Below, one piece after another: positions 14,341 through 58,802 of a stretch of DNA of 64,000 bases (position 1 is the first letter of the stretch; each line of letters opens with the position of its first letter). The translations under genes and the position numbers were made by a program. The notes beneath the pieces are model-generated. The model did no database searches. It was not told the DNA's origin and saw only the letters and a list, made by a program, of their open reading frames with translations. Source of the stretch: Paenibacillus bovis (GTDB lineage: Bacteria; Bacillota; Bacilli; Bacillales; Bacillaceae_C); NCBI GenBank assembly GCA_007679095.1, contig VEFU01000005.1, positions 1-64,000 on the forward strand, in the 5' to 3' direction.

Positions 14341-14610
14341 TCGTTCTTTTTGATGGGATCGGTGCTCTTATTGACGTTAGAGGCTTTCTTTTCGACGCTG
14401 GGGGATTTCTTTTCGATGCTGAGCGCTTCCTTTTCGACGCTGGAAGCTTTCTTTTGAGTGCTCAGCACTTTTTATTTGAAGTTACATTTTCTTTTGGATG
14501 TTGAGTGCTCTTTATTAAACGCTGAGCACTCTCTTTTCGACGTTGGACGATTTCTTTTCGACACTGGAGGCTTTCTTTTGGATGCAGGGCTCTTTTTATT
14601 TATAGATTCT
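14341..14610. repeat. Tandem array, 21-bp units with core TTTCTTTTCGACGCTGG
   Basis: About ten degenerate 21-bp units. Anchors (TTTCTT) fall at 14385, 14406, 14427 and 14448, exactly 21 bp apart. The first part of each unit is conserved and the rest varies. Upstream, 14130-14340 is G-rich with short GGCTTGGAGG-type repeats. No gene is supported here. Confidence 0.85.
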
Positions 14611-14613
14611 TAG

Positions 14614-15085
14614 TTTACTGGCCGTGATACTTCATTTACTGGCCATCGTACGGTTTACTGGCCGTTGATCCAATTTTACTGGCGGTCGTACACAGTTTAC
14701 TGGCCATGTTCTTCATTTACTAGCCATCGTACATGCTTTACTAGCCGTGCTACTTCAGTTACTGGCCATCGTACGGTTTACTGGCCATTGATCCAATTTT
14801 ACTGGCGGTCGTACACAGTTTACTGGCCGTTGATCCGATTTTACTGGCGGTCGTACATAGTTTACTGGCCATGTTACTACATTTACTGGCCGTTGTTCCA
14901 ATTTTACTGGCGGTCGTACGACATTTACTGGCCGTGATACTACATTTACTGGCCTTCGTACGGTTTACTAGCCATGCTACTTCAGTTACTGGCCATCGTG
15001 CAAAGTTTACTAGCCGTCATACAAGAGTTACTGGCCATTATGCACTGTTTACTGGCCATCCCCCCTCATATACAAGCCGTCACAT
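14614..15085. repeat. Tandem array, 19-21-bp units with core TTTACTGGCC (forward)
   Basis: Over twenty units starting TTTACTGGCC, TTTACTAGCC or TTTACTGGCGG followed by about 11 variable bases. The array begins directly after a CGACGCTGG-type array and ends about 12 bp before the modB stop codon. All three forward frames are largely open simply because the core holds no stop, so the open frames are not evidence for a gene. Confidence 0.92.
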
Positions 15086-15096
15086 TTACATAGCAC

Positions 15097-17440: not shown

Positions 17441-17867
17441 GGATGAGGGATAGTAATTCGACGTTGATGGATAGTAATCTCAGGGCAATGGCCAGTAAAA
17501 CGGGATAACGGACAGTATTTTGCAGTCGGACAGTAAAACGACGATGATGGATAGTAATTAGGCAATGTTGGCTAGTATTTCTAGCATGAAGGACAGTAAA
17601 CACAGCACAATGGACAGTAATACTAGGAGGACGGACAGTATTTTGAGAACGGATAGTAAAACGACGTTGATGGACAGTAAGTTGGCAATGTTGGCTTGTA
17701 TTTCTATTATATTGGACAGTAATATCAGGGAGATGGACAGTAAAACTGTGAGGACGGACAGTATTTGCGGTCGGACAGTAAAATGATGTTGATGGCCAGT
17801 AACTAGGTGACAATGGCTTGTATTTCTATCATGATGGACAGTAATACTAGGAGGACGGACAGATAAC
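17441..17867. repeat. Tandem array, 21-bp units with core GGACAGTAA (reverse of TTACTGTCC)
   Basis: About twenty units beginning GGACAGTAA, GGCCAGTAA or GGCTTGTAT. A six-unit block recurs with starts at 17526, 17651 and 17773 (spacing 125 and 122 bp). It lies upstream of modA and is inverted relative to the array downstream of modB. No gene is supported between the modA start and the next operon. Confidence 0.92.
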
Positions 17868-17898: not shown

Positions 17899-17943
17899 AT
17901 AAAAAAATCTACAGACTTGGTTTTAGTCTGTAGATTTTTCCAT
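17899..17943 (-). terminator. Terminator of the DnaA_N-Uma2 gene
   Basis: A 12-bp perfect stem (17906-17917 with 17925-17936) with a 7-nt loop and T-runs on both sides, placed directly after the stop codon on the minus strand. Confidence 0.85.
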
Positions 17944-18776
17944 TAATAAGTAAATACCATTGATAAATCAATCTTTAAGCCATCTAATATTGAAACTTTG
18001 ACTTGGTCTTCCTCAGAATACAGATTAGGGCGACCGTATTTTTGATTACCCAAAGTAAAAACACTGACTATCTTTTCTTGTGGTTCAATGATCCAATATT
18101 CTTTGACACCTGCTTCTTCATATTTATGAAATTTTAATAGTTTATCTTTTCTTGCTGTTGAAGGAGATGTGATTTCAATGATCATATCCGGACTTCCAAT
18201 GCAGCCATGTTCGTTAAGTTTTGATGTATCACAAACTATCGAAATGTCTGGTTCCACAACACTTCTACTATCGTCATTTAAACAAACATGAAATGGAGCA
18301 GGGTAAACTTTACACTCTTTCCCAACTAGAAAGTTAGCAATCTGCCGGTGAAGCTCAGATAATATTTCTTGGTGGATTCGAGATGGAGCAGTTTGCATAT
18401 ACGGAACGCCGTCAATAATTTCTGTTCTAATATTTTCGTGCAAATCTGTGTAATCAGTATATGAATTGGACACGTCTTCTTTTTCCATTTGGTGCTCAGC
18501 AACTATGTATGTGTCATTTTTTGTGGAAGCTTCTTCTTCTGTAAAGATGAATATATGGGGTTTGCTGTTCGTAGTTTCTAAGATTGCATCTTCTATCAAT
18601 CTCTTATGCTGATTTTCTAACCAATCCCTAGCAAACTCATTAGGAGCAATAATTGTCCAATAGTCTCCTTCTATAACTGCTCTCGTGTGCTTAAACCATG
18701 TATCATAGGAAGGTTTATTCAAACGTTTTTCAATCAAACGCAATACATCTAACCACTGGCTACTCTCTTTTATCAT
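17943..18776 (-). CDS. DnaA domain-I / Uma2 nuclease fusion protein
   Basis: A 277-residue protein with two recognisable parts. Residues 1-75 resemble DnaA domain I: WLDVLRLIEKRLNKPSYDTW, then WTIIAPNEFARDWLE, close to the Bacillus DnaA N-terminus. Residues about 115-277 are a Uma2 (DUF820) PD-(D/E)XK nuclease domain: VEPDISIV, MIIEITSPSTARKDK and KYEEAGVKEYWIIEP supply the D, E and K residues. Normal Uma2 proteins are stand-alone, about 185-200 residues. The start is set by AGGAGTGAT before the ATG at 18776; a longer frame would run through a terminator and a REP element. Domain I of DnaA is a protein-docking module, so the fusion may recruit the nuclease to replication proteins, which is inference. 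Confidence 0.8.
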   Translation of the reverse strand: MIKESSQWLDVLRLIEKRLNKPSYDTWFKHTRAVIEGDYWTIIAPNEFARDWLENQHKRLIEDAILETTNSKPHIFIFTEEEASTKNDTYIVAEHQMEKEDVSNSYTDYTDLHENIRTEIIDGVPYMQTAPSRIHQEILSELHRQIANFLVGKECKVYPAPFHVCLNDDSRSVVEPDISIVCDTSKLNEHGCIGSPDMIIEITSPSTARKDKLLKFHKYEEAGVKEYWIIEPQEKIVSVFTLGNQKYGRPNLYSEEDQVKVSILDGLKIDLSMVFTY

Positions 18777-18861
18777 CTTGACATCACTCCTGCTCAAATG
18801 ATGGATTATATTCCTAGCATACCTAGTAAAAGAGTAACCTTCAATAGGTGGTAAGAAATAA

Positions 18862-18903
18862 AAGAACCCGCCATTCTCTCTAGTAAAATGGCGAGTTCTT
18901 TCT
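18862..18903 (-). terminator. Terminator of the lipoprotein gene
   Basis: A 12-bp stem with one mismatch (18864-18875 with 18887-18898, GAACCCGCCATT and AATGGCGAGTTC) followed on the minus strand by TTTTATTT. Confidence 0.75.
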
Positions 18904-18916
18904 TTAAGGGACTTTT

Positions 18917-18986
18917 GGGACGAGGGACCTGACCCCATGTCCCTCTTCTAGTGGATATTGGGTCAATGAACCTGACCCCATGTCCC
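18917..18986. repeat. Two 27-bp REP-like palindromes in direct orientation
   Basis: Copies at 18917-18943 and 18960-18986, each with GGGAC/GGGTC and GTCCC arms around CCTGACCCCAT. They lie between the lipoprotein stop codon and its hairpin terminator. Confidence 0.8.
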
Positions 18987-25280: not shown

Positions 25281-25792
25281 AGACAGTAAAGTACATCCGA
25301 TCGCTAGTTTAATTAGTACCATGGACAGTAATTCACAACGACGGACAGTAATCCGATGATAATAGCTAGTAAATCAGGCATGATGGACAGTACTCTCAAC
25401 TCAACGGCTAGTAAATCAACCATGACGGACAGTAAACTCAACTCAATGGAGTAATCAACACTACGGCCAGTAAACTCTACCCAATGGCCAGTATTCTCAA
25501 CTCAACGACTAGTAAACTCTACGCAACGGACAGTAATCAACACATCGGCCAGTAAACTCTACCCAATGGCCAGTATTCTCAACCTAACGGATAGTAAATA
25601 CAACTCAACGGCTAGTAAACTCTACTCAACGGCTAGTAAACTCTACTCAACGGACAGTTATCTCAATCCAACGGACAGTAAACTCTACTCAACGGACAGT
25701 AAAGTCAACGGAACCGCCAGTAAAATCATCGCAACGGATTGTAAACTCCCCCTAACCGCCAGTAAACCATCATCCTCCGCTAGTAAACACCA
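25281..25792. repeat. Tandem array, 21-bp units with core GGACAGTAA / GGCCAGTAA
   Basis: About 24 units (reverse orientation of TTACTGKCC), for example GGCTAGTAAACTCTACTCAAC and its variants. Part shows an 82-bp, four-unit block (starts 25465 and 25547). It separates galE from the surface-polymer region. No gene is supported. Confidence 0.9.
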
Positions 25793-25797
25793 AAAGT

Positions 25798-25883
25798 GGG
25801 ACAAGGAAGCTGCCCCCTCGTCCCACTGCATACCAATATCGGGACGACGAACCTGACCCCTTGTCCCATGACCCCTTGTCCCA
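25798..25883. repeat. REP-like palindromes, two full and one partial
   Basis: 27-bp copies at 25798-25824 and 25841-25867 with GGGAC and GTCCC arms, then a partial copy to 25883. They abut the end of the GGACAGTAA array. Confidence 0.8.
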
Positions 25884-33467: not shown

Positions 33468-33502
33468 ATACTACCTACCTCTCATCTTAAATTTTTTAGA
33501 AT

Positions 33503-33720
33503 GGGACAGGGGTTGGTTTTCGGGACACGGGGTCAGTTTTCTTGGGACATGGGGGCAGTTTTCTTGTCCCAGTTTGGTTGGTGGGACACGGGGGCAGACT
33601 CCTTGTCCCAACCTATAGCGGGACTAGTAACTGCCCCTAACCCGTTCAATGTGGGACGGTGTTCCTGACCCCATGTCCCGCCCAGTCACTGGGACGATGT
33701 TCCTGACCCCATGTCCCGTC
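33503..33720. repeat. Cluster of REP-like palindromes
   Basis: At least five whole or partial copies of the GGGAC...GTCCC element in succession. The two rightmost copies are clear, and the last (33691-33717) contains the 3' end of the neighbouring phosphotransferase gene. Confidence 0.8.
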
Positions 33721-44728: not shown

Positions 44729-44946
44729 AATTTCAGTCCTCCAATGAATAATATTACTACAATCTTCACAAAAGCATTACCTACTAAATTAGGTAAACGT
44801 GAATATGAGTGCACTTTGTAATAGGTATTATCCAGCATAGTTACAATTAATATTCTTAAAAAGAACTTCATATAAAAAGCTTAACTTTTTCTACATTATA
44901 TTACATAATAGAACATATATCATAGAAATTGGGGGGATTTAATAAT

Positions 44947-47900
44947 TTGTTAAAATTACAATCAAAACTTGTAACTTTACTTCTATTTATTGTAACAATA
45001 ATTTTTCTCACAACTTCATTAGAAGTAAATGCAAGTGATTCAAAATGGGAGGCGGAGTACTATCCATATAATAGTAATCTTAATGGAACTTCCGTAAAAA
45101 CCACTGAAAGTGATATTGATTTTAATTGGGGAGATATAAAATCTCCTGCGCCTGGAATTCCTCCAAATATTACTTTTTCAGCCAAGTTTCAGAAGGTTTT
45201 CGACATTAAGGAGGACGGGGTATACAATTTAATCACTATTGCTAATGGTGGTGTACGGGTGTATGTGAATGGACAACTCCACCTGGACGCTTGGCAAGAT
45301 ACTGGAAAAACGGAGAATCGTCAGCAACCAGTCTTTCTTTCCAAGGGACTTCATACTATCAGAGTAGAATTTAAGGAAACTGCTGGTGAGGCAAGTATTA
45401 AGTTTCAACTAGATGATTTATTGCGTGATAATCGGTGGTATGGAGTAGTCTATCCAACAGTTAATTTTTCTGGGAAAGGAACACTAGTGGGATACAGCCC
45501 TCAGATTCCTACTTTGAATTTTGACTGGGGTGATGTAAAGTCACCAGCACCAGGCATTCCTCCTAACACAGCATTTTCCGCAATATACCAACGAAAAATT
45601 CATATTAAGGATTCAGGTGCATATAACTTAATTACTCATGCTAATGGGGGCGTAAGGGTATATGTTGATGGGATTCTACATATTGATGGTTGGAGCGACA
45701 CAGGAAAAACAGAAAATAGACAACAATCAGTTTATTTAACTGAGGGCACCCACACTATCAGAGTAGAATTCAAGGAAACTGCAGAAGAAGCTAATTTAAA
45801 CTTTTCTCTTGACGATTTACTAAGAACCAATAGGTGGTATGGTATTGAATTTCCATCTGAAGACCTTTCTGGTAAAGGTAGATTAGTAGGATATAACCCA
45901 CAAATCCCAAATTTGAATTTTGATTGGGGAAATAATAAATCACAAACACCTTTTTCAGCTATCTATCAAAGAAAGATTTTTATAGATAACGAAGGTGGAT
46001 ACAACCTGATTACTCAAGCAAACGGTGGGATTAGAGTTTTTGTCGATGGATCACTTTATATCGATGATTGGAATGATACCGGAAGAAATGAAAACCGCCA
46101 ACAACCAGTAAAACTTTCTAAAGGTTGGCATACTATTAGAATTGAATATAAACAATCTCAAGGAAATGCTAGTTTAAGATTTTCATTGGATGATTTATTA
46201 AGAGATAATCGTTGGTATGGTATTGTCTATCCAACAGATGATTTTTCAGGAAAAGGTATGTTAGTTGGTTGGAACCCGCAAATACCTGAGCTTAATTTTG
46301 ATTGGACTAATGGAAAAACACCTGCACCTGAGATAAGCCCTAACAGTAAATTTTCCGCTATATATCAAAGGAATATTTATATCGGAGAAACTGGTGGATA
46401 TAATTTAATTACAAAATCTAACGGCGGGGTTCGCCTTTATCTGGATGGAGAACTACAAATCAATGACTGGAATGATAGAGGTAAGTATGAAAATCGCCAA
46501 CAACCTATCTATCTTACTAAAGGGTGGCATACTATTAGAATTGAGTATAAGAATACTACCGGAAATGCTAGTTTAAATTTTTCCTTAGATGATTTATTAA
46601 GAGATAATCGTTGGTATGGTGTAGTATACCCTACGGATAATTTTACAGGTAAAGGAACTTTAGTTGGTTGGGATCCACAAATTCCTAATCTCAATTTTGA
46701 TTGGGGAGATGTGAAATCACCTGCCCCAGGAATACCACCTAACAGAACTTTCTCGGCTATTTATCAAAAGAACATTAAGATTAACGATGCTGGCTTATAT
46801 AATTTAATTACTAAAGCCAATGGTGGCATACGATTATACGTTAACGGTGAGCTTAAAATTGACGGATGGAAAGACACTGGTAAACGAGAAAATCGCCAAC
46901 ATGCTCTCTTTTTACCAGAGGGAACTCATACTTTAAGAATTGAGTTTAAAGAAACAGCAGGTGAAGCTAGTGTTGAATTTAATTTAGATGATTTATTACG
47001 AGACAATCGTTGGTACGGGGTAGTTTACCCTTCACATAATCTAACAGGAAAAGGTATATTGGTAGGATATAGCCCACAAATACCTGAGCTTAACTATGAT
47101 TGGGGAGACATAAAGTCACCAGCCCCTGGAATACCACCTAATGTAGCATTTTCAGCTACATACCAACGAAAGTTTTATACAAATGAAACAGGTGTTTATA
47201 ATATCGAATCTCACGCAAATGGAGGAGTTCGAATATACGTTGATGGCCAGTTACAGATTGATGATTGGAAAGATACTGGAAAAACTGAAAATCGTCAGCA
47301 ATCTGTTTACCTAACAAAAGGGTGGCATACAATTCGAACTGATTACAGAGAGACTGCAAAAGAAGCTAGTTTAAAAGTTTCAATCAGTAATTTAATAAGC
47401 AAAAATTGGAAGACCTACAAGCAAACGAATTATTCGTATGACTTGCATAAAATGGTAAATGCACAGATGAAGGCCTCACCTCAAACAGATTTAACGGGCG
47501 GGTTAGGTTGGCAAGATGCGTCTATAAACCAGGTGCAATATTATACAAATCCATTAAACTTTAAAAATGATAGTAATGAATTCTACCAATTTCTTGTTCT
47601 ATCAAGATCCGTTGGCTTAAATTCCGATGACATTAATGTCATAAATCAAAAATTCCTGACAAATGCAGGGGTATTGACAAATAAAGCCTCAGTATTTGCT
47701 AAAGGTGCTAATAAACATTCTATTAATGAACTTTATTTGATAGCACATGCAATCTTAGAAACAGGGAGAGGTAAATCAGATTTAGCATCGGGAATAAGTA
47801 GATGGACAAAGAGAAATTCAAAGGGTGAAATTGTAAAAGATGAAAACGACAAACCTATTATAATGGATATTTCCCCTAGAAAAGTTTACAACATGTATGG

Positions 47901-48750
47901 AATTGGTGCCTATGATAAATGTCCACTAGATTGCGGTGCTCAAAGGGCATACGATAATGGATGGTTTGATATTGATACAGCTATTATAGAAGGCGCTGCT
48001 TTTGCATCTGAAGGATACATTCATGATGGCCAAAACACACTTTTTAAAATGCGTTGGAATCCAGCACACTTAATTAGCAATAACTATGCATCCCATCAAT
48101 ACGCATCAGATATTGGCTGGGCCATAAAGCAATCTGGTATCATTTCAAACATGTATGCTGAATTGACAGGAAGCTATGTATTGGAATTTGATGTACCACA
48201 ATTTGTATCACAAAATACTGCTCCAAAGGGTAGTATCGAGTGGCAGGGTACACCAGAAACAAATCTCATATCTTATCCTCAAGGTATTTTTGGCATTACT
48301 AATTCTGGAAATTATAACCTGAATCTTCGTAGCGAGACAACTACTGCTAATGAGAAGAATATAATTGGCAGTATCCCAACAGGTTCTAAAGTTGAAGTAT
48401 TAGGCGAAACTACCGGACAAGTGGTTGGAGATAGCAGTACATGGTACCAAGTGAAGTTTGATGGTAAGACTGGTTATGTTCATAGCTCCTTTGTTGATTT
48501 ATTAAATTTACTTGAGGTAACTGCAACAACGATTAATGTAAGAAAAGGTCCTGGAACTAACTATGATAATGTAAATCAAGCACCAAACTTTGTCGCAAAA
48601 GGTAATTTAATTAGGGCAGAAATAGATAATAATAATAAATTAATTACCCAAGCTGCCAATGGTCACGTATGGTATCAAATCAATTTTAATGGCATTAAAG
48701 CATGGGTTAGCGGTGGTAAAGACGGAACAGAATATATTAAAGTAAGGTAA
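44947..48750 (+). CDS. Secreted glucosaminidase with six PA14-like repeats and two SH3 domains
   Basis: A 1267-residue exported protein. A signal peptide covers residues 1-30 (LLLFIVTIIFLTTSLEVNA). Six PA14-like repeats of about 137 residues follow (to about residue 820), each with a NRWYGxxYP start, PQIPxLNFDWG and RVYVNGQL. Repeat 3 has lost the SPAPGIPPN loop. Next is a GH73 domain (about 880-1070) with SINELYLIAHAILETGRGKS carrying the catalytic Glu, then two bacterial SH3 domains (about 1110-1185 and 1190-1267). It probably cleaves peptidoglycan glycan chains, with PA14 and SH3 parts binding wall carbohydrate. The start is a TTG at 44947 behind a GGGGGG tract. B. subtilis has its LytD glucosaminidase in the equivalent neighbourhood. 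Confidence 0.88.
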   Translation: MLKLQSKLVTLLLFIVTIIFLTTSLEVNASDSKWEAEYYPYNSNLNGTSVKTTESDIDFNWGDIKSPAPGIPPNITFSAKFQKVFDIKEDGVYNLITIANGGVRVYVNGQLHLDAWQDTGKTENRQQPVFLSKGLHTIRVEFKETAGEASIKFQLDDLLRDNRWYGVVYPTVNFSGKGTLVGYSPQIPTLNFDWGDVKSPAPGIPPNTAFSAIYQRKIHIKDSGAYNLITHANGGVRVYVDGILHIDGWSDTGKTENRQQSVYLTEGTHTIRVEFKETAEEANLNFSLDDLLRTNRWYGIEFPSEDLSGKGRLVGYNPQIPNLNFDWGNNKSQTPFSAIYQRKIFIDNEGGYNLITQANGGIRVFVDGSLYIDDWNDTGRNENRQQPVKLSKGWHTIRIEYKQSQGNASLRFSLDDLLRDNRWYGIVYPTDDFSGKGMLVGWNPQIPELNFDWTNGKTPAPEISPNSKFSAIYQRNIYIGETGGYNLITKSNGGVRLYLDGELQINDWNDRGKYENRQQPIYLTKGWHTIRIEYKNTTGNASLNFSLDDLLRDNRWYGVVYPTDNFTGKGTLVGWDPQIPNLNFDWGDVKSPAPGIPPNRTFSAIYQKNIKINDAGLYNLITKANGGIRLYVNGELKIDGWKDTGKRENRQHALFLPEGTHTLRIEFKETAGEASVEFNLDDLLRDNRWYGVVYPSHNLTGKGILVGYSPQIPELNYDWGDIKSPAPGIPPNVAFSATYQRKFYTNETGVYNIESHANGGVRIYVDGQLQIDDWKDTGKTENRQQSVYLTKGWHTIRTDYRETAKEASLKVSISNLISKNWKTYKQTNYSYDLHKMVNAQMKASPQTDLTGGLGWQDASINQVQYYTNPLNFKNDSNEFYQFLVLSRSVGLNSDDINVINQKFLTNAGVLTNKASVFAKGANKHSINELYLIAHAILETGRGKSDLASGISRWTKRNSKGEIVKDENDKPIIMDISPRKVYNMYGIGAYDKCPLDCGAQRAYDNGWFDIDTAIIEGAAFASEGYIHDGQNTLFKMRWNPAHLISNNYASHQYASDIGWAIKQSGIISNMYAELTGSYVLEFDVPQFVSQNTAPKGSIEWQGTPETNLISYPQGIFGITNSGNYNLNLRSETTTANEKNIIGSIPTGSKVEVLGETTGQVVGDSSTWYQVKFDGKTGYVHSSFVDLLNLLEVTATTINVRKGPGTNYDNVNQAPNFVAKGNLIRAEIDNNNKLITQAANGHVWYQINFNGIKAWVSGGKDGTEYIKVR

Positions 48751-50622: not shown

Positions 50623-51663
50623 ATGGGTCGATATCAGTTAACAGTTAATCAAAAGAAAAAACGAAAGAGAAGAATATTTTGGTTTATCGCGTTTCCCATC
50701 TTGCTTGTACTAGCTGCAGGGATAAGCTATGGCGTGCACTTATATATTAAGGCAGATAAAATGATGGCCAATTCATTCGAAAGCCATCGTGAGGATGGAA
50801 AATCCAATTTACGTGAACAAAAAGTAGATCCGAAAATTGATAATATATCGATTTTATTTATCGGAATTGATGATAGTGAAAAGCGTAGTCAAGGTACAAA
50901 TACCCGTTCTGACGCACTGCTACTTGCTACATTAAACGAAAAGGAAAAATCAGTGAAACTACTTTCCATACCACGTGATTCCTATGTATATATTGATGAG
51001 GTCGGTTATTCAACAAAAATCAACCATGCCCATAGTTACGGTGGACCAAAAGCAACAATTGAAACAGTAGAAGATTTACTAGAAATTCCTGTTGATTATT
51101 ATGTTCGCCTTGATTTTGAAGCATTCATGCAAATTGTGGATGCACTAAATGGCATTGAGGTTGAAGTTCCATACACATTCACAGAACAAGATTCTAATGA
51201 CCGCGCAGGAGCGATCACCCTTGAAAAAGGTTTACAAACATTAAACGGGGAAGAAGCCCTCGCCCTTGCTAGAACACGGAAAAAGGACAATGATATAGAA
51301 CGCGGAAAACGTCAACAAGAAATCATGAAAGCAATCGCTAAGAAAGCGGCATCCTCCTCTTCTGTACTCAAATATGGACAAATCATTGATGCAATTGGCG
51401 AAAACATGAAAACAGACCTAACATTCGATGAAATCACATCCCTATCTGACTATGTCATCTCAGGTAACTTATCCATCGAAACATTAACCATTGACGGATA
51501 TGACCAATACATCCCGAACAGCAAAGGCCAAAACGTATACTACTGGCGCCTAGACGACCAATCCGTCGCAGAAGTAAAATCAACACTCCAACAACATCTA
51601 GAGTTGAAAGGCACTACCAGCAACGTCGCAAAACCACTAAGTGAAGACGGAACAGTAAATTAA
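50623..51663 (+). CDS. LytR-CpsA-Psr (LCP) family wall polymer ligase
   Basis: A 346-residue membrane-anchored protein with one N-terminal membrane segment (FWFIAFPILLVLAAGISYG). The LCP domain (about 80-300) shows DNISILFIGIDDSE, RSDALLLATLN, LLSIPRDSYV and ARTRKKDNDIERGKRQQ, which carry the Asp and Arg residues that bind pyrophosphate lipid. These enzymes transfer teichoic acid from undecaprenyl diphosphate to peptidoglycan. AAGGAG precedes the ATG. Confidence 0.93.
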   Translation: MGRYQLTVNQKKKRKRRIFWFIAFPILLVLAAGISYGVHLYIKADKMMANSFESHREDGKSNLREQKVDPKIDNISILFIGIDDSEKRSQGTNTRSDALLLATLNEKEKSVKLLSIPRDSYVYIDEVGYSTKINHAHSYGGPKATIETVEDLLEIPVDYYVRLDFEAFMQIVDALNGIEVEVPYTFTEQDSNDRAGAITLEKGLQTLNGEEALALARTRKKDNDIERGKRQQEIMKAIAKKAASSSSVLKYGQIIDAIGENMKTDLTFDEITSLSDYVISGNLSIETLTIDGYDQYIPNSKGQNVYYWRLDDQSVAEVKSTLQQHLELKGTTSNVAKPLSEDGTVN

Positions 51664-51704: not shown

Positions 51705-51728
51705 ATGTTGGATGGGGAATGTAGTAGT

Positions 51729-51967
51729 GATGGGGCGGAGTCCTTCTTGATTGGAGGATGGTTACAGTTCTGATGAGGCGGAGTGATTCTTGATTGGTGG
51801 ATGGTTGCAGTTCTGATGGGGCGGAGTGATTCTTGATTGGTGGATGGTTGCAGTTCTGATGGGGCGGAGTCCTTCTTGATTGGAGGATGGTTACAGTTCT
51901 GATGGGGCGGAGTGATTCTTGATTGGAGGATGGTTGCAATTCTGATGGGGCGGAGTGATTCTGGTGG
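51729..51967. repeat. 43-bp tandem repeat, five and a half copies
   Basis: Units start GATGGGGCGGAGT at 51729, 51772, 51815, 51858, 51901 and 51944, exactly 43 bp apart, with few substitutions. 43 bp is close to two 21-bp units, and the repeat runs directly into the TTCTTGCGG array. Confidence 0.92.
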
Positions 51968-53470
51968 ATTCTTGCGGATGCAGCCATTATTCTTGCGAGT
52001 TCTGCTCGTTTTCTTGCGGATGGGAGTTACTTTCTTGCGATATGGAGCTGGATTCTTGCGGAAGCTTTGCGGATTCTTGCAGGAACAACTTAATCTTGCG
52101 GGTGTAGCCGTTATTCTTGCAGCTTCTCCTCATATTCTTGCGGATGGAAGCTGCTTTCTTGCGATATGGAGCTGGATTCTTGCGGAAGCTTTGCGGATTC
52201 TTGCAGGAACTACTTAATCTTGCGGATGCAGCCATTATTCTTGCAGCTTCTCCTCATATTCTTGCGGATGTAAGCTACTTTCTTGCGATATGGAGCTGGA
52301 TTCTTGCGGAAGCTTTGCGGATTCTTGCAGGAACTACTTAATCTTGCGGATGTAGCCATTATTCTTGCTGCTTCTCCTCATATTCTTGCGGATGAGAGCT
52401 GCTTTCTTGCGATAAGGAGCTATATTCTTGCGGAAACTTTGCACATTTTTGCAGGATGAACTTAATCTTGCGGGTGCAACCATTATTCTTGCGGAATCTG
52501 CTCGCTTTCTTGCGGATGTGAGCTGCTTTCTTGCGATAAGAAGCTATATTCTTGCGGATACTGTGCACACTTTTTGCAGGATGAACTTAATCTTGCGGAT
52601 ACATCAATTATTCTTGCGGAATCTGCTCGTTTTCTTGCGGATGGGAGCTGCTTTCTTGCGATAAGAAGCTATATTCTTGCTTGCGGATACTGTGCACATT
52701 TTTGCAGGTAGAACTTAATCTTGCGGATACAACCATTATTCTTGCGGAATCTGCTCGTTTTCTTGCGAATGGGAACTGCTTTCTTGCGATAAGGAGCTAT
52801 ATTTTTGCGGATACTGTGCACATTTTTGCAGGATGAACTTAATCTTGCGGGTGCAACCATTATTCTTGCGGAATCTGCTCGTTTTCTTGCGGATAGGATT
52901 TGCATTCTTGCGATAAGGAGCTATATTCTTGCGGAAACTGTGCACATTTTTGCAGGATGAACTTAATCTTGCGGATACAGCCATTATTCTTGCGGGATCT
53001 GCTGGTTTTCTTGCAGATGTGATCTACTTTCTTGCGATAAGGAGCTATATTCTTGCGGCAACTTTGCGGATTCTTGCAGGAAGAACTTAATCTTGCGAGT
53101 TCATCCATTATTCTTGCAAGTTCTGCTCGTTTTCTTGCAGATGTGATCTACTTTCTTGCGATAAGTAGCTTTATTCTTGCGGCAACTTCATATTTTTTTG
53201 CAGGAACAACTTAATCTTGCGGCTACAACCATTATTCTTGCAGGATCTGCTCATATTCTTGCGGATTCGCCCCACAATCTTGCGTCCGCACCCTATATTC
53301 TTGCGCAAACCCTCCTATTTCTTGCACGACCAGCTTTTATTTGCGACAGCAACCATTAATCTTGTGGATCCACCCTACTTTCTTGCACTACCACCCTACA
53401 TTCTTGCGCTTATCCTTGGTTTTATTACAGCACCACTTTTTTCCTAGCACCCTCCATTTTGCGCAAACCC
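51968..53470. repeat. Large tandem array, about 21-bp units with core TTCTTGCGG
   Basis: About 70 units in 1.5 kb, each a conserved TTCTTGCG core plus about 12 variable bases. Six-unit blocks recur with anchors at 52031, 52155, 52279, 52403, 52527, 52652, 52780, 52904, 53028 and 53152 (124 bp, with 125 and 128 once each). The last units decay toward 53470. It separates the convergent LCP and tagO genes. No gene is supported. Confidence 0.93.
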
Positions 53471-53558: not shown

Positions 53559-54644
53559 TTATAAGTTGCGGTCGTAACGGTTTGTTCCGGTACCGGTACC
53601 GCTGCTGGATGGTTTTGGTTTTAGGAATTTTAACAATGGTTTGTAGTCATTGCTGACGAGACCGACGACTTCGACGAATAGTTCGATTGCGATGAGAACC
53701 ACTCCTACGATAAGGATGGATCCCCAAACAGTTGCCATCGAGAAGATGACGGCTGCAAGGCTGAACATAATCGCGATACCATAAATAATTAGTACGGCTT
53801 GGCGATGTGTGAAGCCTGAATTAATAATACGATGGTGCAAGTGATGTTGATCCGCTGCCGCCAATGGTCTTTTGTTAATGAGTCTGCGGATAATCGCAAA
53901 AAATGTATCAGAAATTGGAACTCCGAGAATAATAATCGGTATAACTAATGATACTACTGTAACATTTTTAAAACCAAGCATTGCCAGTACGGATATCATG
54001 AAACCAAGGAATAACGCTCCCGAGTCACCCATGAAAATTTTTGCTGGGTGGAAGTTGTAAATTAAAAATCCGAGCGTACTTCCTAACAACATTAGTGCAA
54101 TCGTGACAACAAAAATGTCTCCTTGCAAAAATGCCATGATGCTCAATGTAATAAGCGCGATCGATGAGACACCAGCAGCAAGACCGTCTAGTCCATCGAT
54201 TAAATTAATCGCATTCGTAATACCAACAATCCATAATATCGTTAATGGAATGGTGAGGTAACCGAAATCTAACTGACCACCAAATGGCAAGTTGATGAAT
54301 TCTACATCGAGTCCACCGCGAATGACGACAAGCGCCGCTAGCAGCTGGCCAATCAATTTATATTTGGGACGTAAATCAAAAGCATCATCTAAAATTCCTG
54401 TTACCATAATGATTAAGCTTCCAATTGTAATCGGCCAAATATATGGACTGTCTTGCTGTGACACAATCAGACCAATGATAAAGCTTAGATAAATGGCTAG
54501 GCCACCAAGTCTCGGCATTGCTTTTTGATGAATTTTCCGATGATTTGGTTGATCTGTAATATTAAAACGTATTGCTAATTTTTTTACTAAAGGTGTAATT
54601 AAAATTGAGGCAACAAAACAAAGGAGTAAATACACATATTCCAT
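53559..54644 (-). CDS. tagO: Undecaprenyl-phosphate N-acetylglucosamine-1-phosphate transferase
   Basis: A 361-residue polytopic enzyme of the MraY/WecA family with about 11 membrane segments. Conserved cytoplasmic motifs are GGLAIYLSF, GILDDAFDLRPKYKL, NLIDGLDGLAAG, MGDSGALFLGF and HHLHHRI. It starts WTA synthesis by transferring GlcNAc-1-P to the lipid carrier. AAGGAGG precedes the ATG. It follows tagA by 225 bp on the same strand. Confidence 0.94.
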   Translation of the reverse strand: MEYVYLLLCFVASILITPLVKKLAIRFNITDQPNHRKIHQKAMPRLGGLAIYLSFIIGLIVSQQDSPYIWPITIGSLIIMVTGILDDAFDLRPKYKLIGQLLAALVVIRGGLDVEFINLPFGGQLDFGYLTIPLTILWIVGITNAINLIDGLDGLAAGVSSIALITLSIMAFLQGDIFVVTIALMLLGSTLGFLIYNFHPAKIFMGDSGALFLGFMISVLAMLGFKNVTVVSLVIPIIILGVPISDTFFAIIRRLINKRPLAAADQHHLHHRIINSGFTHRQAVLIIYGIAIMFSLAAVIFSMATVWGSILIVGVVLIAIELFVEVVGLVSNDYKPLLKFLKPKPSSSGTGTGTNRYDRNL

Positions 54645-57631: not shown

Positions 57632-57732
57632 CTCTTTTATTTTATAATTGTCACTTAATATATTTCGACACTATTCTGCAAAACCCTTCTTTCTACTAGT
57701 GGTCTGATCTAAAATAATGTCTATTACTGTTT

Positions 57733-58780
57733 TTTACTAGCCTACGTGTGCTTGTTACTGGCCATCGCATTTTATTTACAAGCCATCATGCATCCATTAC
57801 TAGCCGTCATCAAAATTACTGGCCATTGTGCACCTATTACTGGCCGCTCTCTCTTTTTTACTGGCGGTCTTGCTCCAATTACTGGCTGTCTTCTCTTATT
57901 TACTAGCCATCATGACTTCATTACTGGCCGGCGTCCCCTTTACTAGCCATTGTGCTCCGGTTACTGGCCGTTCTCTCTTTTTTACTGGCGGTCTTGCTTC
58001 ATTTACTGGCTGTCTTCTCTTATTTATTAGCCATCATGACTTCATTACTGGCCGGCGTCTGCTTTACTGGCCATCGTGGTCCGGTTACTGGCCATCATCA
58101 CTGCTTTACTGGCGGTCTTGCTTCAATTACTGGCTGCCACCTCTAATTTACTAGCTATCATGCCTCCATTACTGGCCGTCATCTAATTTACTGGCCATCG
58201 TGCTCCAGTTACTGGCCATCATCACTGCTTTACTGGCGGTCTTACTCCAATTACTGGCTGTCACCTCATATTTACTAGCCATCATACCCGCATTACTGGC
58301 CGTCATCTAATTTACTAGCCATTGTGCTCCGGTTACTGGCCGTTCTCTCTTTTTTACTGGCGGTCTTGCTCCAATTACTGGCTGTCACCTCTTATTTACT
58401 AGCCATCATGACTTCATTACTGGCCGTCATCTAATTTACTGGCCATCGTGCTCCAGTTACTGGCCATCATCACTGCTTTACTGGCGGTCTTACTCCAATT
58501 ACTGGCTGTCACCTCATATTTACTAGCCATCATGCCTCCATTACTAGCCGTCATCTAATTTACTGTCCATCGTGCTCCGGTTACTGGCCATCACCACTGC
58601 TTTACTGGCGGTCTTGCTTCATTTACTAGCCATCTCCTCTTATTTACTAGCCATCATACCCGCATTACTGGCCGTCATCTCCTTTACTGCCATCCTCTCT
58701 TATTTACTGGCCATCATTCTCCAGTTACTAGCCGCAACTCATATTTACTAGCCATCACCCCACAGTTACAAGCCTTCACC
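57733..58780. repeat. Large tandem array, about 21-bp units with core TTACTGGCC (forward)
   Basis: About 50 units. The TTACTGGCGGTCTT unit type recurs at 57858, 57982, 58106, 58230, 58354, 58478 and 58602, exactly 124 bp apart six times, so the array is built of six-unit blocks (five of 21 bp and one of 19 bp). Other unit types, such as TTACTAGCCATCATG, keep a fixed place in each block. It fills the gap between the NERD gene and nagB. The open reading frames through it are incidental. Confidence 0.95.
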
Positions 58781-58802
58781 CCATATCCATAGCAGCGCTC
58801 AC

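Follow-up and report, generated by a model that had tools for sequence, protein, structure and literature searches.

Noncoding tandem arrays with three cores follow a 21-bp step and a six-unit block in one bacterial genome

Results

The window, i.e., the whole 64,000-nucleotide stretch of DNA analysed here, belongs to contig C478 of a genome (G000) that totals 4.57 Mb over 522 contigs. At ∼52 kb, two convergent genes enclose two adjoining tandem arrays:

50623..51663, + strand, gene of the LytR_cpsA_psr family (Pfam), reading towards the TTCTTGCGG array from the left
51728..51962, + strand, 43-bp tandem array of 5.5 copies, containing TTCTTGATTGG and abutting the TTCTTGCG array on its left
51969..53340, + strand, TTCTTGCG (TTCTTGCGG) array of ∼70 units, block 5 × 21 + 19 = 124 bp
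53559..54644, − strand, gene of the Glycos_transf_4 family (Pfam), reading towards the TTCTTGCGG array from the right

Terminator-like inverted repeats were seen by eye in the sequence by both flanking gene ends. The regular part of the TTCTTGCGG array stops near 53340 and a decayed tail extends from ∼53340 to ∼53470. All six of its frames contain stops (9 to 20 each), so the array is noncoding. It has an 8–10 bp core and 11–13 bp spacers that recur every 124 bp, unlike a CRISPR array with its identical repeats and unique spacers. A mobile origin was rejected after a blastn search with the array (E-value limit 1e-5, low-complexity regions filtered) matched none of the plasmid or phage records. 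The 43-bp period of the adjoining array falls outside the 20–21 and 52 bp classes described below. The window also contains a 399-bp tandem repeat (46090–47141) inside a 1273-aa ORF (44929–48750), and short repeats of TGACCCCTTGTCCCA together with a form close to its reverse complement at 25854–25883 and 33502–33566.

Autocorrelation of the segment 51968–53470 gave a self-identity of 0.729 at lag 124 and 0.511 at lag 21; 300 mononucleotide shuffles had a mean of 0.27 (sd 0.011–0.012, maximum 0.30). The 19-bp units start at 52074, 52198, 52322, 52446, 52571, 52699, 52823, 52947, 53071, 53195, and 53319, and the step order within a block is 21, 21, 21, 21, 21, 19. Eight of the 10 intervals between 19-bp units are exactly 124 bp; the remaining two are 125 and 128 bp, the latter resulting from a 4-bp insertion near 52675. 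Five further arrays of 21-bp units are found in the window:

14386..14594, + strand, CTTTTCGACGCTG array (third core), 21-bp steps and one of 19
14615..15090, + strand, TTTACTGGCC array, 21-bp steps interspersed with 19/20 steps (mean step 20.67)
17456..17865, − strand, TTTACTGTCC array in which 17- and 18-bp steps separate runs of four to five steps of 21 bp
25289..25786, − strand, TTTACTGTCC/TTTACTGGCC array, 21-bp steps predominating, clear 124 block absent
57734..58787, + strand, TTTACTGGCC (TTACTGGCC) array of ∼50 units, block 5 × 21 + 19 = 124 bp

The TTACTGGCC array gave a self-identity of 0.792 at lag 124 and 0.504 at lag 21 (57720–58790), and all seven intervals between its 19-bp units are 124 bp, with five steps of 21 followed by one of 19. 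The original prediction had assigned the same 21-bp unit and 124-bp block to the TTCTTGCGG and TTACTGGCC arrays, with anchors 124 bp apart in seven of nine intervals of the former. Analysed separately, the two arrays indeed agree in both peaks, and the interval count was essentially right.

Other arrays of G000 follow the same format with variations. A 39-unit array of the third core CTTTTCGACGCTC on C478 (85.3–86.1 kb, locus L386) has the 5 × 21 + 19 block, one block having four 21-bp steps, and the third-core array on C121 runs 5 × 21 then 18 and 5 × 21 then 19. The third-core array at 14.4–14.6 kb continues in phase into the TTTACTGGCC array (14573 to 14615 = 42 bp), in which the block is present only in part (123 and 187). 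TTCTTGCG arrays elsewhere in the genome have 124-bp blocks on C110 and blocks of 124 and 103 on C331; in the TTTACTGGCC array on C110 the short steps are 18 bp and the blocks measure 123, 123, and 144. Over seven G000 arrays we counted 247 steps of 21, 41 of 19, five of 18, four of 20, one of 22, and one skipped unit (44). The mean step per measured array was 20.45–20.87, and 21.06 in one chain that contains the skipped unit. Families of the same length and different sequence coexist in this genome, as in the TTACTGGCC/TTACTGTCC, TTCTTGCG, and CTTTTCGACGC arrays. An ORF beside the 17.4-kb array (17943–18938, − strand) matches a DnaA N-terminal domain followed by a Uma2 nuclease-type domain.

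We then compared the cores themselves. After a one-base shift, TTTACTGGCC and TTTTCTTGCG agree at most positions, and profile comparison gave p = 0.01 (by shuffling columns and taking the best offset and strand; three pairs were compared), a likeness that appears modest and weak at the level of sequence. Similarity of the third core to the other two was not detected by profile comparison (p = 0.35 and 0.34). When blocks were aligned on the short step and rotations compared, no consistently preferred rotation was found between families. Within the TTCTTGCG family, the C110 and C331 blocks are in register (89/124 vs. 67 at the next rotation, the C331 consensus being made from two blocks), but the 51.9-kb block has lost register with its own family (72 against 71 with C110, 68 against 71 with C331). 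Because register is lost even within this family, its loss between families is a weak argument against common descent. As far as the sequences tell, the families have the block format in common without a recognisable common block sequence.

Conservation is higher in the core than in most of the spacer. Core positions mostly carry 1.1–1.7 bits of information and spacer positions mostly 0–0.9, values to be read with the block copies not being independent; one spacer position of the TTACTGGCC family reaches 1.5, and the third family is more diffuse. TTACTGGCC pairs were found in seven of 16 genomes of the genus, whereas TTCTTGCG pairs and the third core were each confined to G000 (1/16). Among 397 genomes of the order, three consecutive TTCTTGCR at 21 bp (TTCTTGCG) occurred in five, and three consecutive TTACTRKCC at 20–21 bp occurred in 20, from 10 of 135 genera and with differing spacers; both counts include hits irrespective of coding status, and the reversed-pattern controls of both searches were zero.

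The block format goes with the genome rather than with the core: it is 124 or 123 in G000, mostly 3 × 21 + 19 = 82 in G065 (on TTCTTGCG), and 41 as the strongest lag of arrays in G001, G003, and G118. The L. panacisoli array (L135) mixes steps of 21 with 20, G014 arrays hold almost exactly 20 bp, and one G003 array has 21.2. Among arrays of at least 280 bp, the strongest lag was 123 or 124 in five of seven from G000 (the exceptions lying at 14.6 kb and 25.3 kb) and in 0 of 17 elsewhere (Fisher p = 0.0005, which is optimistic since arrays within one genome may have a common history; the coding-like G000 row L192 2469–2921 with lag 84 was dropped and the C331 array was outside the list). Within 1.5 kb behind the Glycos_transf_4 gene, no array was present in any of 13 relatives with a close match to this one flanking gene; the TTCTTGCGG array is therefore dispensable at that place. 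Behind the best match of a NagB-like gene, again one flanking gene, an array was present in two of 15 relatives: G001 has a 21-bp array built on a different core, and G008 has a 52-bp array that is palindromic. Arrays that differ or are missing behind matching genes indicate fast turnover. At two places in G014 (L195 8806–10785 and L198 5408–7761), two arrays bracket a segment, and the ends of the segment at one place match those at the other, a picture resembling the insertion of a mobile element into an array.

To survey repeat periods, tandem similarity was scanned at lags 18 to 130 in 2.37 Mb from 11 genomes. The noncoding arrays with a gene on either side comprised 36 of the 20–21-bp class, 16 of the 52-bp class, and three others; that is, 52 of 55 fell into the 20–21 or 51–52 bp classes, a count from partly biased sampling, as part of the scanned stretches had been picked for holding hits. 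The 21-bp class was counted via lags near multiples of 20–21 bp, which make up about a quarter of lags. ORFs lying for the most part within an array were disregarded, which biases the classification towards noncoding; at least two rows of the 21-bp class, L192 2469–2921 and L195 15226–15484, look coding by the first mask. Arrays at stretch edges (two of the 21-bp class and three more) and coding arrays (four of the 21-bp class, eight of others) were set aside. In 58 evenly stepped stretches (from G003, G001 C1, G006, G014, and G011), eight of nine noncoding arrays belonged to the two classes, two of 21 and six of 52 (among the latter L329, which the first mask places in an open frame); the ninth had a period of 28 bp. 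The gaps holding 21-bp-class arrays were tandem (22), convergent (10), or divergent (4), and this occurrence in all three types led us to reject regulation by gene orientation. Convergent placement was only mildly enriched (p = 0.04) and so gives no strong functional hint.

G000 also contains 52-bp arrays, of one length and several sequences:

L186, 15486–16666, 52-bp array
L188, 14134–14879, 52-bp array
L193, 1082–1987 and 19743–19948, 52-bp arrays
L372, 7061–7410, 52-bp array
L385, 16797–18056, 52-bp array
L386, 14622–16306, 52-bp array

In the 52-bp class, represented by 16 families drawn from 20 rows (with one array present twice), AT/GC power peaked at the fifth harmonic (∼10.4 bp). It reached 0.184 there, compared with 0.09 for 4729 52-mers from intergenic DNA (p = 0.00015, uncorrected for the 12 harmonics). 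The second harmonic of the 21-bp class (10.3 bp) showed a weak excess (0.24 vs. 0.173, p = 0.03; 28 arrays in 20 groups, several of them variants of one core). The mean period per turn was 10.29 in the 21-bp class (31 arrays, a few doubtful) and 10.36 in the 52-bp class (15 arrays). We considered whether the short step is a simple correction of helical pitch and rejected this, as the run in G000 arrays stays mostly at five steps of 21 bp for a short step of 17, of 18, and of 19 alike. Over 13 arrays with a base step of 21, which are not independent of one another, a larger short step went with a longer run (Spearman 0.74, p = 0.004). One palindromic 52-bp family of G000 (GGGAATCA...TGATTCCC) gave strong RNA folds for both strands (z −6.8 and −8.0). 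Notable folds were absent from four 21-bp-class segments on either strand (z from +0.8 to −1.9), which speaks against an RNA hairpin role for this class; the segments likewise lack the stable stem-loop unit of REP/BIME elements.

Discussion

Differing cores with the same 21-base spacing and six-repeat block suggest that helix spacing matters more than letters. We consider the best explanation, with a probability of about 0.45, to be that a putative DNA-binding or DNA-wrapping protein recognises face-phased sites, set at intervals of two helical turns, in the arrays. They would be noncoding platforms in which the two-turn distance puts each site on the same face of the DNA, and spacing would be held more tightly than sequence. 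In G000 the candidate sites mostly stand in blocks of six, on any core, a short step of 17–19 bp completing each run of five 21-bp steps, so that a block of ∼122–124 bp comes near 12 helical turns. Six sites may form one assembly unit, the role may lie in chromosome structure, and the block copies within an array were probably multiplied via ordinary unequal recombination; recombination must have had a part in that multiplication. A protein contacting one face of the DNA or wrapping it would directly explain the conserved core, the freer spacers, and the whole-turn spacing, and assembly in six-site units would explain the genome-linked number of sites per block. Several findings stand against a protein platform: the neighbours of the TTCTTGCGG array are cell-wall-type genes, the pitch is not universal (20 in G014, 21 in others, 21.2 in one G003 array), the adjoining 43-bp array does not fit, and two G000 arrays do not have 124 as their strongest lag.

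The original prediction held that the TTCTTGCGG and TTACTGGCC cores share no sequence and that their agreement in both periods points to a common mechanism or constraint over chance slippage. The first wording was too strong for this pair, given the weak TTTACTGGCC/TTTTCTTGCG likeness, and applies better to the third core, which resembles neither. The second is supported by the 5 × 21 + 19 block on that dissimilar core and by the two period classes that hold 52 of 55 arrays; it loses in that TTACTGGCC and TTCTTGCGG are perhaps not independent (p = 0.01) and that constant size with variable sequence had already been published. The prediction also looked to related genomes for both periods on other cores: the 21-bp class does recur there, but in different block formats.

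The arrays could instead be neutral satellites, made by slippage and unequal recombination, in which copying prefers jumps of whole turns (two or five) and different seeds converge without function. We regard this as rather unlikely, although nearly all sampled noncoding arrays fall into two period classes, copies within arrays are clearly amplified (self-identity 0.73–0.79 at 124 bp), and arrays are missing or different behind matching genes in relatives, as fast turnover predicts. Neutral amplification accounts for copy number and turnover and less well for a core more conserved than most of the spacer, for the presence of the TTACTRKCC core in 10 genera, and for a 5 × 21 + short format on three G000 cores where other genomes have other formats. 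About equally doubtful is common descent, by which the TTACTGGCC, TTCTTGCGG, and perhaps CTTTTCGACGC arrays derive from one ancestor and inherited the six-unit block while the letters changed. The weak core likeness, the in-phase passage of the CTTTTCGACGC array into a TTTACTGGCC array, and the register of the C110 and C331 TTCTTGCG blocks agree with descent, and the out-of-register pair within that family (51.9 kb and C110) weakens the register argument against it. Block rotation without consistent preference between families, the third core being unlike the other two, and the other formats of TTACTRKCC arrays in other genomes speak against it.

A role of the arrays as RNA, in which transcribed repeats would serve as sponges or small RNAs, is disfavoured for the 21-bp class and, in our estimate, the least probable of these explanations. 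The published text reports transcription of the 52-nt repeats of B. coagulans (PMC8161180, PMC8625621), and one G000 52-bp family folds strongly; against this stand the four segments of the 21-bp class without notable fold, zero Rfam matches at gathering score within the window, and the occurrence of arrays in both orientations relative to the flanking genes. Hardly more probable is an extension of the preferred reading in which a trans-acting nucleoprotein machine in each genome would count sites and set one block format on any core (six in G000, four in G065, two in others), and a single helical-phase constraint near 10.3–10.4 bp would yield the 21-nt class over two turns and the 52-nt class over five. 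If true, such a machine would amount to a bacterial chromatin-like code in which the inherited signal is spacing, not sequence. For the protein-platform reading itself, the three different cores in one chromosome offer a natural set for separating spacing from sequence in binding.

Comparison with known systems

Iteron- and centromere-type arrays have direct repeats about two helical turns apart, which could place a bound protein on one face of the DNA. The arrays described here differ from them in that there are many per chromosome, that no adjacent gene has an initiator or partition name (for the TTCTTGCGG array, by Pfam on the two flanking genes), and that the plasmid records searched gave no match to the TTCTTGCGG array.

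The closest likeness is to noncoding tandem repeats of Bacillus with a constant length of 20–21 or 52 nt and variable sequence (Subirana and Messeguer, Int J Mol Sci 2021; PMC8161180). As described in the main text of that report, there are several families per genome, each with a short characteristic core, and 21 nt corresponds to two helical turns; the authors propose a protein polymerising on DNA, or small RNAs, term the repeats enigmatic, and report their sequences as species-specific. The G000 arrays are likewise noncoding (stops in six frames), with a 20–21 nt unit, multiple families, a conserved short core (by information per position), and 52-nt repeats alongside. Where the Bacillus repeats have at least 60% of units of identical length, 21-bp steps here make up five of six per block. 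As to species-specificity, TTCTTGCG occurs in one of 16 genomes of the genus but in five of 397 in the order (the other four counted irrespective of coding status), and TTACTRKCC in 20 of 397. The 52-bp arrays of G000, with one length and several sequences, resemble the 52-nt Bacillus repeats, and differ from the 21-bp class in spanning five helical turns instead of two, in AT/GC phasing at ∼10.4 bp, and in at least one palindromic family.

The central inference, that spacing prevails over letters, is thus known in kind from the 20–21- and 52-nt repeats, as is the constant-length class itself (PMC8161180). The terms 'higher-order', 'higher order', and '124 nt' are absent from the main text of PMC8161180, and neither there nor in our literature searches did we recognise a report of a six-unit block. 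Relative to that text, three features appear to be new: the six-unit block in three cores, the link of block format to genome, and a core that occurs in several genera. The higher-order block provides a sharp and testable rule, namely a number of sites per block that is set by the genome.
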